Origin: Bacteroidales bacterium
GTDB lineage: Bacteria > Bacteroidota > Bacteroidia > Bacteroidales > F082
Assembly (NCBI GenBank): GCA_024400455.1
Contig: JAKSMU010000011.1
Coordinates: 1-64,000 of the forward strand
DNA: 64,000 bases
Reading direction: 5' to 3'
A program made the translations under genes and the position numbers. Of the stretch, positions 4,041 through 11,517 are shown in pieces. Position 1 is the first letter of the stretch. Each line of letters opens with the position of its first letter. Below the pieces are notes generated by a model. It was given only the letters and a program-made list of their open reading frames with translations, made no database searches and was not told where the DNA came from.

Positions 4041-4748
4041 ATGACCCATTATGACCCCAACATACACCACCGCCGTTCCATACGGCTGAAAGGCTACGAT
4101 TACGCATCGGCGGGATTGTATTTCGTCACCATTTGTGTCCAAAACCGCGAAATGATGTTCGGTGAAATCAATAATGGCAATATGATATTGAACGATGCCG
4201 GACGCATGGTGGAACGATGGTATTACGAAACGGAAAACAAATTCCCCGACATCGTTTGTCTTGAAATGGTTGTCATGCCCAACCATTTTCATTGCATCTG
4301 GCAAAACACATCTTCTGCTGCTGTCGCTGTCCCCGTCGGGGCGGACCTGTGTGTCCGCCCGTCATCGGCGGACCTGTGTGTCCGCCCGTCATCGGCGGAC
4401 CTGTGTGTCCGCCCGTTAATTGATGATGAACACACATTGAATGAACACACATTGGGCGAACACACATTGGGCGAACACACATTGGGCGAACACACATTGG
4501 GCGAACACACATTGGGCGAACACGTAGGTTCGCCCCTAGCGAGGGTCGTGCAATGGTTCAAAACAATGTCAACAAACGAATACATTCGTGGCGTGAAACA
4601 ATTGGGTTGGCCGCCATTCGACCGCCGATTGTGGCAACGCAATTATTACGAACATATCATACGCAACCAATTGGCATACAATAATATTGCAAATTATATC
4701 AACAACAACCCTGTCCGTTGGGACGAGGATAAATTTCATAAAAAATGA
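4041..4748 (+). CDS. REP-associated tyrosine transposase (RAYT, Y1 HUH family)
   Basis: The 235-residue protein has the conserved N-terminus of Bacteroidota RAYTs (RRSIRLKGYDYASAGLYFVT) and the metal-binding HUH-type motif H82-x-H84 within PNHFHCIW, followed by the C-terminal motif LWQRNYYEHIIRN. RAYTs are single-copy Y1 relatives of IS200/IS605 transposases thought to mobilise REP palindromes. The middle (about residues 95-165) is interrupted by tandem repeats ADLCVRPSS and EHTLG, encoded by REP-like palindromes. The stop overlaps the hsdR ATG (ATGA), so the gene sits inside the restriction operon instead of carrying visible transposon ends. I cannot tell whether the enzyme is still active. 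Confidence 0.88.
   Translation: MTHYDPNIHHRRSIRLKGYDYASAGLYFVTICVQNREMMFGEINNGNMILNDAGRMVERWYYETENKFPDIVCLEMVVMPNHFHCIWQNTSSAAVAVPVGADLCVRPSSADLCVRPSSADLCVRPLIDDEHTLNEHTLGEHTLGEHTLGEHTLGEHTLGEHVGSPLARVVQWFKTMSTNEYIRGVKQLGWPPFDRRLWQRNYYEHIIRNQLAYNNIANYINNNPVRWDEDKFHKK
4338..4412 (+). repeat. Three 27-bp REP-like palindromic repeats within the RAYT gene
   Basis: Three copies with a 27-base period each contain GCGGAC-ctgtgt-GTCCGC. The first has the longest stem: GGGCGGAC at 4339-4346 pairs with GTCCGCCC at 4353-4360. The others centre on 4368-4385 and 4395-4412. The period is a multiple of three, so the array stays in frame and encodes ADLCVRPSS units. Confidence 0.88.
4428..4535 (+). repeat. 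15-bp tandem array ending in a REP-like palindrome, in the RAYT gene
   Basis: Six copies of GAACACACATTGGGC (the first ends GAAT) run from 4428 to 4517 and encode EHTLG/EHTLN. The array ends in a palindrome with arms GGGCGAAC (4514-4521) and GTTCGCCC (4528-4535). Each 15-mer therefore resembles one arm and loop of that hairpin, as if half-hairpins had been amplified. The length is in frame. Confidence 0.88.
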
Positions 4749-7163: not shown

Positions 7164-7202
7164 CAAGGATAAGATTTATTGAAGAAAATCATTTCCTTTG
7201 CA

Positions 7203-7802
7203 ATGAATATCAGTGCGTTATCACGGACAACGGACTTTGTCGGCTATCGCGATATGGATAGCTATACCGAAGAGGGCGGTTTCTTCGGCCTGCTGGGCGA
7301 GTGCCTCGCCGAGGCGGACTGTGAGGTGGCCGCTACGGGTCTGTCGGCCGTCGATATCGTCAACCTGGCTCAAGGCATCGCCATCGACATGATGAATGGT
7401 GAGCCGCCATGCGAAACCCAGCTCTGCGAAAGCGTAGGCGGGACAAGGGCGGCTTATGCCGCCGTGGCCGTGGCTTGGCTCATACTGATGGCATTGCCGC
7501 GCTGCGAGGCGCCGCCGCGCAACGATACCGATGCACTGAAAGGAATGGCGAGGCAATCGGGCCTTTTCTCGTACATGAAACGTATGCTCGACTTTTGCAA
7601 CGACTATGGCCTGGTGAGCCATCTGCTGAAACCGCGCACAGGCAGCCAGTTCAACCGTCAGATTGCGGTGAGGCGGGAAGTGCCCAAGCCTGAACCCGAC
7701 GAGGTGAGACCGGCGGCGACCGTCATCAATGTGATGCCTGGAGCCACAGTCAACATTTCGGAATATCATCATAACAACACCATAAACACCACCAACCCAT
7801 GA
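7203..7802 (+). CDS. Accessory protein of unknown function with C-terminal PGATVN motif
   Basis: I do not recognise this 199-residue protein with confidence; it resembles small uncharacterised proteins of Bacteroidales integrated elements. I chose ATG at 7203 over an in-frame TTG at 7179. It has an Ala-rich, possibly membrane-associated helix (AAYAAVAVAWLILMALP, about residues 81-97), then a helical region and a proline-rich linker. It ends in INVMPGATVNISEYHHNNTI, which resembles the N-terminus of the next protein. Its stop overlaps the next ATG (ATGA), so the two are probably co-expressed and may interact. The gene is GC-richer than the flanking core genes. Confidence 0.75.
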   Translation: MNISALSRTTDFVGYRDMDSYTEEGGFFGLLGECLAEADCEVAATGLSAVDIVNLAQGIAIDMMNGEPPCETQLCESVGGTRAAYAAVAVAWLILMALPRCEAPPRNDTDALKGMARQSGLFSYMKRMLDFCNDYGLVSHLLKPRTGSQFNRQIAVRREVPKPEPDEVRPAATVINVMPGATVNISEYHHNNTINTTNP

Positions 7803-8245
7803 ACATCACCATTTCACCGGGATGCACCGTGAATTTCCACGACATCCACGACAACCAGAATGTCTATATCGGAAAAATAGAAGGACAGCCAACACCCGAA
7901 ATGCACGAAGCGGATGACGGCGACGGCTCGCGCGAGGACCGCATTTGCCATTGCGTGGAACAGCTCATCGACGAGGATGTCATCCGGAAAAAAGGAGACT
8001 TGGCCGCCATTCGTCAGGTGCTGTTGGATAAAGGGTATTATGGTGACATACAGACGACAAAATTCGTGCAATTGCTGAAAAAGGGCTGTTCCGCGAAAGT
8101 CCATGACATGTTGCCGAGCGACAGCATGCTGCGTAAAATCATCATTTCGGGGAAATATCCCGAATGGCGCATCACCGACGGCCAGCCCGACGAAACCGCC
8201 CGCCTTGTCGAAGTCGCAAGGAGATTTCTGGCGATTTTTGAATGA
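7799..8245 (+). CDS. Accessory protein of unknown function with N-terminal PGCTVN motif
   Basis: This 148-residue protein is translationally coupled to the preceding gene by an ATGA overlap. Its first 25 residues (ISPGCTVNFHDIHDNQNVYI) look like a beta-strand-rich motif related to the C-terminus of its neighbour. The rest is a predicted helical domain (RICHCVEQLIDEDVIRKKGD onward) that I cannot assign to a named family. There is no signal peptide or membrane segment, so it should be cytoplasmic. A palindrome with a T-rich tail about 45 bases downstream probably ends the transcript or attenuates it. Confidence 0.75.
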   Translation: MNITISPGCTVNFHDIHDNQNVYIGKIEGQPTPEMHEADDGDGSREDRICHCVEQLIDEDVIRKKGDLAAIRQVLLDKGYYGDIQTTKFVQLLKKGCSAKVHDMLPSDSMLRKIIISGKYPEWRITDGQPDETARLVEVARRFLAIFE

Positions 8246-8250
8246 ATGAG

Positions 8251-8309
8251 ATTCCCGCCGATTCCCATATCCATTCCCATTTCATGCCCTAATTCCCAGA
8301 TTCATTCCC
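8251..8309 (+). repeat. Cluster of five ATTCCC(A) direct repeats
   Basis: ATTCCC begins at 8251, 8261, 8273, 8292 and 8304, with one inverse copy at 8316-8321. Five copies within 60 bases of non-coding DNA, just before a promoter and a structured leader, could be a binding array. The last two copies form part of a terminator-like hairpin. The role is unknown. Confidence 0.5.
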
Positions 8310-8330
8310 AAGTCTGGGAATTTTCGTTTT
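8291..8330 (+). terminator. Hairpin with T-rich tail, probable terminator
   Basis: AATTCCCAGA (8291-8300) pairs perfectly with TCTGGGAATT (8313-8322) around a 12-base loop, followed by a T-rich stretch with one CG interruption. It separates the gene pair at 7203-8245 from the transcript beginning near 8360. Confidence 0.6.
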
Positions 8331-8347
8331 ACCCTCTTTCCTCACTT

Positions 8348-8355
8348 TATTTTTG
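8348..8355 (+). promoter_or_regulatory. Putative promoter -7 element before the structured leader
   Basis: TATTTTTG fits the Bacteroidota -7 consensus and would start transcription near 8361, just before the folded leader at 8368-8432. Confidence 0.6.
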
Positions 8356-8367
8356 CCCCGTCAATCG

Positions 8368-8432
8368 GTCGCAAACCGCTTGGGAGCAAGAGCCTGAGGC
8401 GTATGCTCCCCGCCAAGGCTCTAAGCGGCGAC
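8368..8432 (+). ncRNA. Structured leader RNA with possible pseudoknot
   Basis: A compact set of complementary segments nests and crosses. The outer stem is GTCG (8368-8371) with CGAC (8429-8432), then CCGCTT (8376-8381) with AAGCGG (8423-8428). The inner stem is AGAGCCT (8389-8395) with AGGCTCT (8416-8422), capped by GGCG (8398-8401) with CGCC (8411-8414). The apical loop holds TGCTCCC (8404-8410), which is fully complementary to the bulged GGGAGCA (8382-8388). That pairing would make a pseudoknot, or an alternative fold. It lies between a promoter and the ATG at 8482, so it could be a cis-regulatory leader. A DNA role (recombination or replication hairpin) is also possible. I do not recognise a known family. 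Confidence 0.6.
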
Positions 8433-8481
8433 GCGGCTGAAAAGGCATAACGGAATTGTTTAATCATTAAGTTCAAAACAG

Positions 8482-8808
8482 ATGAATACGTTAAGATTCA
8501 CAGGAAAGATAAAACACATCTCCCCGATGCAGAGCGGGATTAGTTCAAGAACCAACCGGCCGTGGTGTTCCACCGATTTCGTGGTGGAGGAAGCCGATGG
8601 GCAGTATCCGCAGAGCGTGGTGTGCCGCACACGCAACGAAGCCGTCATAGCCTTGCTGCAGGCGCAGCGCGTCGACAGCGACGGCACCTACAACGGCTTA
8701 TGGCTGGCCTCCATCGACCTGAAGGCGCACAGCTTTCAGAAAGCCGACGGCACCACCGCCTGGAGCACCGACCTCAATTGCTGGAAACTGGAAAGGATAG
8801 GAGACTGA
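8482..8808 (+). CDS. Small OB-fold-like protein (DUF3127-like)
   Basis: The 108-residue protein (TGKIKHISPMQSGISSRTNRPWCSTDFVV...) resembles DUF3127 proteins, which are predicted single-stranded-DNA-binding OB folds found with replication genes of Bacteroidales elements. The pattern is a beta-rich N-terminal half, then a region about predicted trinucleotide/strand turns, ending LNCWKLERIGD. The gene begins after the structured leader and is followed three bases later by another small gene and then the primase-like gene, which fits a role in element replication. The family match is by eye and moderate. Confidence 0.72.
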   Translation: MNTLRFTGKIKHISPMQSGISSRTNRPWCSTDFVVEEADGQYPQSVVCRTRNEAVIALLQAQRVDSDGTYNGLWLASIDLKAHSFQKADGTTAWSTDLNCWKLERIGD

Positions 8809-8811
8809 GCC

Positions 8812-9144
8812 ATGAAGAAGCAGGTTATCAACAATATCCGTCTCGTCATCTACAACAACGACGGAAAGGAAATGCAGCCCAAGGAACCGCACACAGGCAT
8901 GGGCGCACTGCTGCAGGACGGCGACGCCTTCGTCTTCAACAAGGAAGGTAAAATCACACGCGGCTACGCCCCAAACCCCGTGTTCTACCAAGGCAAGGTG
9001 TTGAAAAGCCGTGTGCTGAAAGACGGCAACTACAGCCTTCGCGCCGAGTTCAGTTCCGCACAGGACCTCGACACCCTGCAAAGACAAATGGTTTTTGAGG
9101 TGGTCTGTCTCATCAGCAAAATCAAGGTGTTGAACGAATACTGA
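8812..9144 (+). CDS. Small accessory protein of unknown function
   Basis: This 110-residue protein has no recognisable domain. It starts three bases after the preceding stop and ends seven bases before the primase-like gene, so it belongs to the same operon. It is mixed alpha/beta with no signal peptide or membrane segment. Its position between a predicted single-strand-binding protein and a P-loop protein suggests an auxiliary DNA-metabolism role, but this is only inferred from context. Confidence 0.7.
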   Translation: MKKQVINNIRLVIYNNDGKEMQPKEPHTGMGALLQDGDAFVFNKEGKITRGYAPNPVFYQGKVLKSRVLKDGNYSLRAEFSSAQDLDTLQRQMVFEVVCLISKIKVLNEY

Positions 9145-9151
9145 TGGCGCC

Positions 9152-11422
9152 ATGGCATATTACTTCAAATCGGTAAGTGCAAAGGGACAGCTCCTGACCA
9201 GGGAGCTGTTCCTCGCCGCCACCCACAACGAGGGTCTGCTGCCGCTTTACCAACAGATTGCTAACGAACCTGACAACGGCAAACGCGGCGAACTGAAGAA
9301 AAGGCTGCCGGGCATCACCTGGCAGGCCGATTTCCCCAAGGGACGGCGCAAGAACGACGAGGCCGTGGCGACAGGCCTCTTTATCGTCGACATCGACCAT
9401 ATCGACAAGCCCGAAGCCGTCTATCAGGAGAAAATCGCCTACCGCCTCGTGGAACTGGGCGTGATGGCCGTGCATTGCACCCCTTCGTGCCATGGCCTGC
9501 GTGTGGTGGCGCGATGCCGTAAGGACTGCCACAGCATCGAGGAAAACCAGCGTTGGTTTGCCCAGCAGACCGGCCTCGCCATCGATGCAGCCGTCAAGGA
9601 CCTGGCGCGTTTCTCTTATCTCGTGCCGCATACCTATTTCTATTATATGGATGATAACATCTGGACCATGGAAAACACTGCAAGCGAAAACAATTGTAAA
9701 GACGAACCCGCAGACGACACACGCAACGTAATGAAAAACGAATTGGATGGAGACGTTGCACGCAACGTCTCTACGGGATTGCAGACCCATTACAAGGGCC
9801 TTGCCCTGACCGACATCGCCATGGAATGGCTGAAGTCCAACGGCGGCCTGCCCCAGGAAGGCGAGCGCAACACGGTGCTGCACCGGCTGGCTTTCAGCCT
9901 GCGCTATATCACCGAGTTCAAGGCCGAGGTGGTGGCTGCCGCCATTCCGCATTGCGGCCTGACGGATGCCGAGGTGTTGTCGCTGTGCCAGAGCGCATGC
10001 AACGCCCAGCGTTCATCGCAGATGCCGCGCGACCTGCAGGTGCTGCTGTATCAGATGCTGAAGGAGGGGGGCGACAAGGACCTTTCGCAAGATGCCGCCA
10101 CGCCATCGCCTGCCATCGCCGACGATGCCGACGACCCGCACGACGAGGAATATCTGGCGCGTCTGCCCAAGCTGCCCCTTGGACTGAACGAATCGCTGTT
10201 AGGCGTGCCCGACAAGGTGAAGGTGCCCATCCTGTGCGGCATAATGCCCCTGGCCATGACCTACGCCACCAACGTCAGCTACCAATATTGCGACGGCAAG
10301 CAGCAGCGCCTCAACATGATGTGCGTGGTCTATGGCAAGCAGGCTTCGGGCAAGAGCGCCGTGAAGGATGTGGTGGAGGTGTGGCGCAAGCCCATGAAAG
10401 CCGCCGATGCCGAGGCACGTCAGCAGGAAGACGAATACAAGCAGCTGAAGAAAGGCCGCAAGGCCAACGAGAAACTGCCGCCCGAGCCGAAGACCTTCGT
10501 GCAGGGCGTAGCCGTCACCATATCCAATTCGGGCTTGCTCAAGCGCATGAAGAATGCCGCCGGGCGTCATGTGTTCAGCTTCGGCGAGGAACTCGACACC
10601 TTGCGCAAGAGCAACGGCGCAGGATCGTGGAGCGCCAAATACGACCTCTACCGCATGGCCTTCGACAATGGCGAGTGGGGACAGGACTATGTGTCGGACA
10701 ACTCCGAAAGCGGCATGGTCAACGTGGCCTACAACTGGACGATTCTCGGCACCTACGGCGCGGTGAAGAAACTCTTTGTCACCGACAACGTGGAGAACGG
10801 CCTGGGCGGGCGCATCCTGTTCAGCATGATGCCGAGCCGTAACTTCGAGGACATGCCGACCTACGAGGAGCGCGACCCGATGATTGATGAGAAAATCTAC
10901 GAGGCTGTCAATTTGCTGTCGTCCTACAAGGGCTTCGTCGACACGCCGCGGCTCCGCAAGGAGATGACGAAATGGTGCAACGAAGAAGCAGCCTTGGCGC
11001 GCGCCGACAAGGACATCGTCCGCGACACCTTCCGCAAGCGTGCCTGCGTCATCGGCTTCCGCTGCGGGGTGGTGTTCCACCTCTTGCAGAACGATGGCGA
11101 CCCGCTGAAAATGGGACCCGAGAGCAAGGCCTGTGTCGACTTCGCCAAACTGATGGCGGAATATGCGCTGAAATACCAGATGGAGCTGTTCGGCGAGCAA
11201 CTGCTTGAAAACGTCACGGTGCTGACGGCATCGGGCAGGAAGACCAAAAACAAGAGCCTGTTCGATGAACTGCCTGTGGAGTTCTCCATGCAGGATATTC
11301 TCGCATTGCGTCCGGATTTGTCAAACCACGGTATGCGGCAGATGGTCTATGTCTGGAACCGTGATGAACTGATAGAGAAGGTGGGGAAGAACCAATGGCG
11401 CAAGAAACGGAAAGACGAATGA
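9152..11422 (+). CDS. BT4734/VirE-N domain and P-loop (DUF3987-like) protein
   Basis: This 756-residue protein joins two modules typical of Bacteroidales integrated elements. Residues about 60-170 match the BT4734/VirE N-terminal domain (LFIVDIDHID, TPSCHGLRVVARC, AVKDLARFSYL), which is predicted to be primase-like. Residues about 340-720 form a DUF3987-like ATPase with Walker A GKQASGKSA (about residues 396-404). A linker (about 180-215) contains an in-frame REP-type palindrome at 9751-9774. The gene is GC-rich; for example, bases 10021-10080 are 63% G+C by my count. It ends just before a strong terminator. A role in element replication is inferred; no integrase or relaxase accompanies it. 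Confidence 0.85.
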   Translation: MAYYFKSVSAKGQLLTRELFLAATHNEGLLPLYQQIANEPDNGKRGELKKRLPGITWQADFPKGRRKNDEAVATGLFIVDIDHIDKPEAVYQEKIAYRLVELGVMAVHCTPSCHGLRVVARCRKDCHSIEENQRWFAQQTGLAIDAAVKDLARFSYLVPHTYFYYMDDNIWTMENTASENNCKDEPADDTRNVMKNELDGDVARNVSTGLQTHYKGLALTDIAMEWLKSNGGLPQEGERNTVLHRLAFSLRYITEFKAEVVAAAIPHCGLTDAEVLSLCQSACNAQRSSQMPRDLQVLLYQMLKEGGDKDLSQDAATPSPAIADDADDPHDEEYLARLPKLPLGLNESLLGVPDKVKVPILCGIMPLAMTYATNVSYQYCDGKQQRLNMMCVVYGKQASGKSAVKDVVEVWRKPMKAADAEARQQEDEYKQLKKGRKANEKLPPEPKTFVQGVAVTISNSGLLKRMKNAAGRHVFSFGEELDTLRKSNGAGSWSAKYDLYRMAFDNGEWGQDYVSDNSESGMVNVAYNWTILGTYGAVKKLFVTDNVENGLGGRILFSMMPSRNFEDMPTYEERDPMIDEKIYEAVNLLSSYKGFVDTPRLRKEMTKWCNEEAALARADKDIVRDTFRKRACVIGFRCGVVFHLLQNDGDPLKMGPESKACVDFAKLMAEYALKYQMELFGEQLLENVTVLTASGRKTKNKSLFDELPVEFSMQDILALRPDLSNHGMRQMVYVWNRDELIEKVGKNQWRKKRKDE
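9751..9774 (-). repeat. REP-type palindrome with GTAG foot inside a coding region
   Basis: AGACGTTGC (9751-9759) pairs perfectly with GCAACGTCT (9762-9770) around a two-base loop, followed by CTAC. On the minus strand this reads GTAG then the hairpin, the layout of RAYT-associated REP elements. It is in frame and encodes GDVARNVSTG in the linker of the P-loop protein. Confidence 0.75.
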
Positions 11423-11432
11423 AAATGAAACT

Positions 11433-11468
11433 CCGAGGGTGTCGCTTTGATGCCCTCGGTGTTTTTTG
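11433..11468 (+). terminator. Rho-independent terminator of the accessory operon
   Basis: CCGAGGG (11433-11439) pairs with CCCTCGG (11453-11459), followed by GTG-free T run at 11462-11467. It closes the operon 10 bases after the last stop codon. Confidence 0.85.
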
Positions 11469-11517
11469 TTCGTCTCAATGCCTCACGAACTCCATCCCCC
11501 GAAGGGGAGTCTTTCTT

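Follow-up and report, generated by a model that had tools for sequence, protein, structure and literature searches.

The window, a stretch of 64,000 nucleotides from a gut Bacteroidales bacterium, carries an ssb–p110–primase operon, in front of which lies a leader with closely packed complementary segments (8368–8432). The features around this leader are as follows:

8251–8322, + strand: ATTCCC(A) repeats and an inverted repeat, AATTCCCAGA/TCTGGGAATT, in a layout also found in L068 and L072
8323–8326, + strand: possible −33 element, TTCG (consensus TTTG), 21 nt 5' of the −7 box
8348–8355, + strand: −7 promoter box, TATTTTTG, which fits TAnnTTTG, is kept in the homologue and stands at the same place in the leaders of relatives
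8356–8481, + strand: 5' leader of about 126 nt, read from the sequence, up to the ATG at 8482
8441–8481, + strand: A/T-rich, poorly conserved spacer with UUAA-type repeats, running to the start codon
8482–8808, + strand: gene for a DUF3127 protein, predicted SSB fold
8812–9144, + strand: gene for a 110-aa protein (p110), with a relative in L067
9152–11422, + strand: gene for a BT4734-type primase with a DUF3987 putative helicase (Pfam PF08800 and PF13148)

The product of the first gene matches Pfam PF11325 (E 1e-8) and PHROG 4932, and the best Foldseek matches of its AlphaFold model (pLDDT 86.5) are SSB proteins (probability 1.0); on this model, it has a single-stranded-DNA-binding (SSB) fold. 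No Pfam, PHROG or NCBIfam match was found for p110. The −7 box upstream and the SSB-like model downstream agree with the original prediction, which placed the structured element between a promoter and a small OB-fold gene. A small ORF (8246–8440) runs across the element but is not coding, because its start codon is absent from the homologue in L066. The Bacteroidetes promoter consensus is TAnnTTTG at −7 and TTTG at −33, and in B. thetaiotaomicron the median 5' UTR is 32 nt, with 13.5% exceeding 100 nt (PMC7366714); set against this median, a leader of about 126 nt is long for Bacteroidetes.

The following segments make up the fold:

8365–8372, + strand: 5' arm of the closing stem P0, TCGGTCGC, pairing with GCGGCTGA in the minimum-energy fold
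8433–8440, + strand: 3' arm of P0, GCGGCTGA, pairing with 8365–8372, from the fold and the homologue comparison
8368–8371 and 8429–8432: extra match GTCG/CGAC, seen in the sequence
8376–8381, + strand: 5' arm of the outer stem, CCGCTT, pairing with 8423–8428 (pair probability 0.85–0.99)
8423–8428, + strand: 3' arm of the outer stem, AAGCGG, at the end of which identity with the homologue stops
8382–8388, + strand: 5' arm of S1, GGGAGCA, pairing with TGCTCCC at 8404–8410 (pair probability 0.72–0.80)
8389–8395, + strand: 5' arm of S2, AGAGCCT, pairing with AGGCTCT at 8416–8422 (probability 0.12–0.20), competing with or crossing S1
8398–8401, + strand: inner stem of S2, GGCG, pairing with CGCC at 8411–8414

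All of the nested stems and the 7-base crossing match described in the original prediction are present in the window sequence, exactly at 8368–8432. S1 is formed in the minimum-energy fold (−39.6 kcal/mol), and a fold in which S2 is forced is 0.6 kcal/mol worse (−39.0 kcal/mol); P0 closes the whole domain in the minimum-energy fold, and the enclosed domain measures 53 nt. An alternative closing stem resembling that of L119 (CCGU/GCGG with UCG/CGA) was rejected, as it costs 10 kcal/mol more than P0. If S1 and the whole of S2 formed together, the connecting loops would be 0 nt long, which the loop-length rule for H-type pseudoknots makes implausible. Thus, the crossing 7-bp helices on which the predicted pseudoknot was based exist, but the full form is excluded by its loops and only a partial one is left. 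It is plausible that the element forms such a partial pseudoknot or alternates between two folds.

Is this degree of complementarity more than chance? Among 20,000 dinucleotide shuffles, 0.065% contain two crossing Watson–Crick helices of 7 bp or more, and not one has such a pair inside a helix of 6 bp or longer; this exceeds chance, as had been claimed, for a pattern that was set post hoc, with the data already seen. By folding energy the excess over shuffles is smaller: the 121-nt stretch folds only slightly better (z −1.04), with z −2.27 (p 0.02) for the core at 8368–8432 and z −2.1 for 8376–8428. The modest z-scores would suit an ordinary GC-rich leader without a regulatory role, in which the complementarity reflects chance and recent common ancestry. 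We consider this quite improbable in view of the crossing-helix test, of a conservation that ends abruptly where the structure ends and of the structured leaders that recur in relatives, although only two copies are known and there is no covariation.

The second copy, which is the only close homologue, belongs to another species of the same genus, where the cassette is also present (L003/L066). No covariation is seen in the window's own stems; the two known copies are nearly identical and their stems are the same. Between them, there are no changes in 96 positions at 8333–8428, as compared with 6 in 87 positions in the upstream repeats (Fisher p 0.01) and 23 in 53 in the spacer at 8429–8481 (30 of 53 identical; Fisher p 8e-8); the identity breaks off abruptly at 8428, the last base of the outer stem. 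Where changes do occur, pairing is kept: beside the stems, CGACGCGG becomes TGATGTGG and the pairing is retained as G.U, and P0 stays paired despite C-to-T changes. A run of 96 identical bases is not exceptional by itself, because coding stretches of the two species also share identical runs of 224, 120 and 116 bp and of 43 four-fold sites in ssb a single one differs. The conservation of the leader, as far as two sequences can speak to it, is therefore suggestive rather than decisive.

Beyond this pair, searches returned little. Rfam cmscan over 8230–8500 gave nothing at the gathering threshold or even at E 5, in line with the earlier failure to recognise a known family; the window leader thus shares with the Rfam cis-regulatory RNAs of Bacteroidales a structured leader behind a TAnnTTTG promoter but matches none of them. 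With the leaders of relatives, Rfam produced only implausible miRNA and snoRNA matches below gathering scores. A covariance model of the element (R1), run over 80 loci and 171 genomes, recovered only the two known copies and no intermediate between the window leader and the hairpins of relatives; its weak extra matches appear to be coding sequence. In its own genome the element is single copy. IMG/VR held neither a relative of the SSB protein nor an identical copy of the core, only two remote primase fragments; plasmids gave no match and phages two remote primase matches.

The 80 loci, which carry distant primases, often keep the order of upstream genes, intergenic region, ssb/p110 and primase. 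Their leader sequences differ from that of the window, and many start with a hairpin exactly after TAnnTTTG, with arm pairs such as CACCGTAATCAG..CTGGTTGCGGTG, CACCGGATTTCC..GGAAGTTCGGTG, CACCGTCAAATC..GGTTTGGCGGTG, CAGCGTCAAAC..GTTTGGCGCTG and CCCTCGGATTCC..GGAGTTCGGGGG, among others; many relatives have no leader hairpin. Stems at the first bases after TAnnTTTG were found at 14 of 116 sites upstream of primase genes versus 12 of the 791 promoter-like sites used for comparison (Fisher 3.8e-7). A comparison in which leaders were picked regardless of folding points the same way but less strongly, these leaders being more stably folded than the controls (p 0.02). In 13 distinct arm pairs, from loci that were selected for pairing and include several near-duplicates, 96% of positions are paired and 8 of 10 pairs have changes on both sides, far above slid controls. 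In a second hairpin of the Prevotella relatives, one pair is A-U, G.U or G-C, depending on the locus. Moreover, the zone upstream of the primase contains 11 stems (about five independent classes) when G.U pairs are allowed, 2 when A.C is allowed and 1 with Watson–Crick pairs only. Because A.C in place of G.U loses 9 of the 11 stems, the hairpins of the relatives would probably act as RNA, in the sense of the mRNA strand. In L119 the closing stem stands at the very start of the leader and the inner domain is larger, so the window leader may be a bigger version of the 5'-terminal stem of the relatives.

Hairpins of this kind also precede p110-like genes, unrelated genes and genes outside the cassette, so that their common denominator is the promoter and 5' end and not the SSB gene. 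In L117 (8411), L134 (minus strand), L167, L073 (3605), L100 (3676) and L135 (5672) they stand at +1 before genes other than ssb or primase, several being followed by T runs, and +1 hairpins may be a general feature of Bacteroidales leaders. A GC-rich +1 hairpin followed by T runs, as in L107, L113, L130, L091, L143 and L167, could be a promoter-proximal intrinsic terminator, an attenuator at which most transcription would end until it is relieved. Neither in the window nor in L066, however, does a T run follow 8428 or 8440, the ends of the structure in either fold, and for the window copy attenuation is thus very unlikely.

The original prediction had also left the nature of the element undecided between a riboswitch-like leader, a protein-binding RNA and a DNA hairpin. 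The G.U-keeping changes in the homologue and the preference for G.U over A.C in relatives lean to RNA, but name no ligand. At the DNA level, the element could belong to an origin of replication or a single-strand initiation site that the neighbouring primase–helicase uses, with a layout like that of RSF1010 oriV/ssi. ATTCCCA repeats, an A/T-rich stretch and a hairpin do lie directly 5' of the SSB and primase–helicase genes, and the cassette is found at different loci in the two species, with a remnant elsewhere. Nevertheless, the wobble preference of relatives points to RNA, we saw no sign of an extrachromosomal form, and L165 and L074 share their leader (96% identity) while their upstream repeats differ. 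The repeats and the leader, being separable in relatives, need not form one origin, and we regard this possibility as unlikely. The repeats at 8251–8322 are probably a terminator or binding sites belonging to the upstream genes.

The window holds eight exact copies of ATTCCCA, five of them within 61 bp. At 8251–8322 the ATTCCC(A) unit is reused as an arm of the inverted repeat, as it is in the Prevotella loci L068 and L072, and in L071/L074, L084, L085 and L099 different repeat units occupy the position of the cluster. Inverted arrays of short repeats around an A/T-rich stretch, resembling replication origins of the SaPI kind, lie upstream of the ssb/primase genes in L067 (4380–4680), L068 (4560–4850) and L083 (4760–4930).

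The comparison of loci indicates that the cassette moves. It is found at 7179–11469 of the window, in L033 and in L063; homology between the window and L033 spans 7934–11423, and the neighbours and the restriction cargo differ. In the other species, the counterpart of the right flank and the cassette are on different contigs, and the window's own genome has a decayed copy of the cassette on contig C12. The two proteins encoded upstream (window 7179–8245; L071, L074, L084, L085) carry the short motif GxxVNIxxx at the C-terminal end of the first and the N-terminal end of the second, and outside it the protein pairs are unrelated between loci; from their sequences, these ends look like swappable docking tails. 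The break in homology at 7934 falls just behind the motif.

Other repeats in the window were considered. Positions 1–115, tried as the left end of the mobile element, were rejected, as they belong to a dispersed palindromic repeat of about 325 bp, in which TGACAAAATGACAAATG units flank an A/T-rich centre and which lies between ordinary chromosomal genes; further copies are on contigs C5, C12 (two), C41 and C74 of the same assembly (G000), and the contig probably starts where it does owing to this repeat. A gene resembling those of REP-associated tyrosine transposases, with HTLGE and ADLCVRPSS repeat runs, lies at 4041–4748, within a type I restriction–modification cluster. The leader element, being also palindromic, invites comparison with REP palindromes and their transposases. 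REP elements are present in many copies per genome, however, and the leader element, with one copy in its genome, is not a REP.

An SSB-fold protein encoded behind a pseudoknot-capable leader suggests, by analogy, an autogenous loop like that of T4 gene 32, in which the protein would nucleate on the leader pseudoknot, spread over the A/U-rich spacer and block its own translation. The first gene of the operon encodes a predicted SSB fold, and the order of parts (a pseudoknot-capable block, an open UUAA-repeat stretch of more than 40 nt, the start codon) matches the T4 operator (PMC535899). As in the window, the T4 and RB69 gene 32 operators have a pseudoknot-capable 5' element and then a less structured, A/U-rich stretch before the gene; their sequences diverge while a similar structure is kept (PMC535899), which we also count in favour of such a loop. 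The window differs in its protein family, in a much larger domain and in bistable helices with 0-nt loops. A/U-rich spacers are, besides, common ahead of Bacteroidetes start codons, which weakens that part of the parallel. Since hairpins in relatives also front operons beginning with p110-like or unrelated proteins, the autogenous loop is less favoured, and we hold it to be doubtful.

Our preferred reading (probability about 0.6), drawn from sequence comparison, is that the ssb–p110–primase operon has in this element a structured 5' leader RNA that acts in cis. Transcription would begin just 3' of TATTTTTG, and the nascent RNA would fold into a stem that begins very near the 5' end and closes off the 53-nt domain. 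This domain could toggle between the nearly equal S1 and S2, or be held as a partial pseudoknot. Together with the open A/U-rich stretch before the start codon, the folded 5' end would then set the output of SSB and primase, most likely through mRNA stability and the access of ribosomes or of a bound protein. What we observe are the segments, the promoter match, the conservation, the folds of nearly equal energy and the 5' hairpins that recur in relatives; transcription, action as RNA, a switch and the direction of control are what we infer. Possibly, though we would not bet on it, the Bacteroidales modules of the BT4734-type primase share a fast-evolving 5'-terminal leader RNA of conserved structure; the window copy would then be a larger version of it, a bistable or pseudoknot switch responding to free SSB or to the replication state of the element.

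The downstream gene belongs to the BT4734-type archaeo-eukaryotic primases of mobile elements, here with a DUF3987 putative helicase, and the available portion of the account of this family contains no mention that we found of a leader RNA (PMC5862659). Nor did we find a cis-regulatory RNA described for the primase modules with which restriction cargo moves in these genomes. To our knowledge, few cis-regulatory RNAs of Bacteroidales are known beyond Rfam homologues, and we would class the element as a candidate leader RNA that has not been described before. If the leader does set the levels of SSB and primase, a mobile module of this kind would be controlled at that point, and RNA regulation of replication genes could be tested directly on it.
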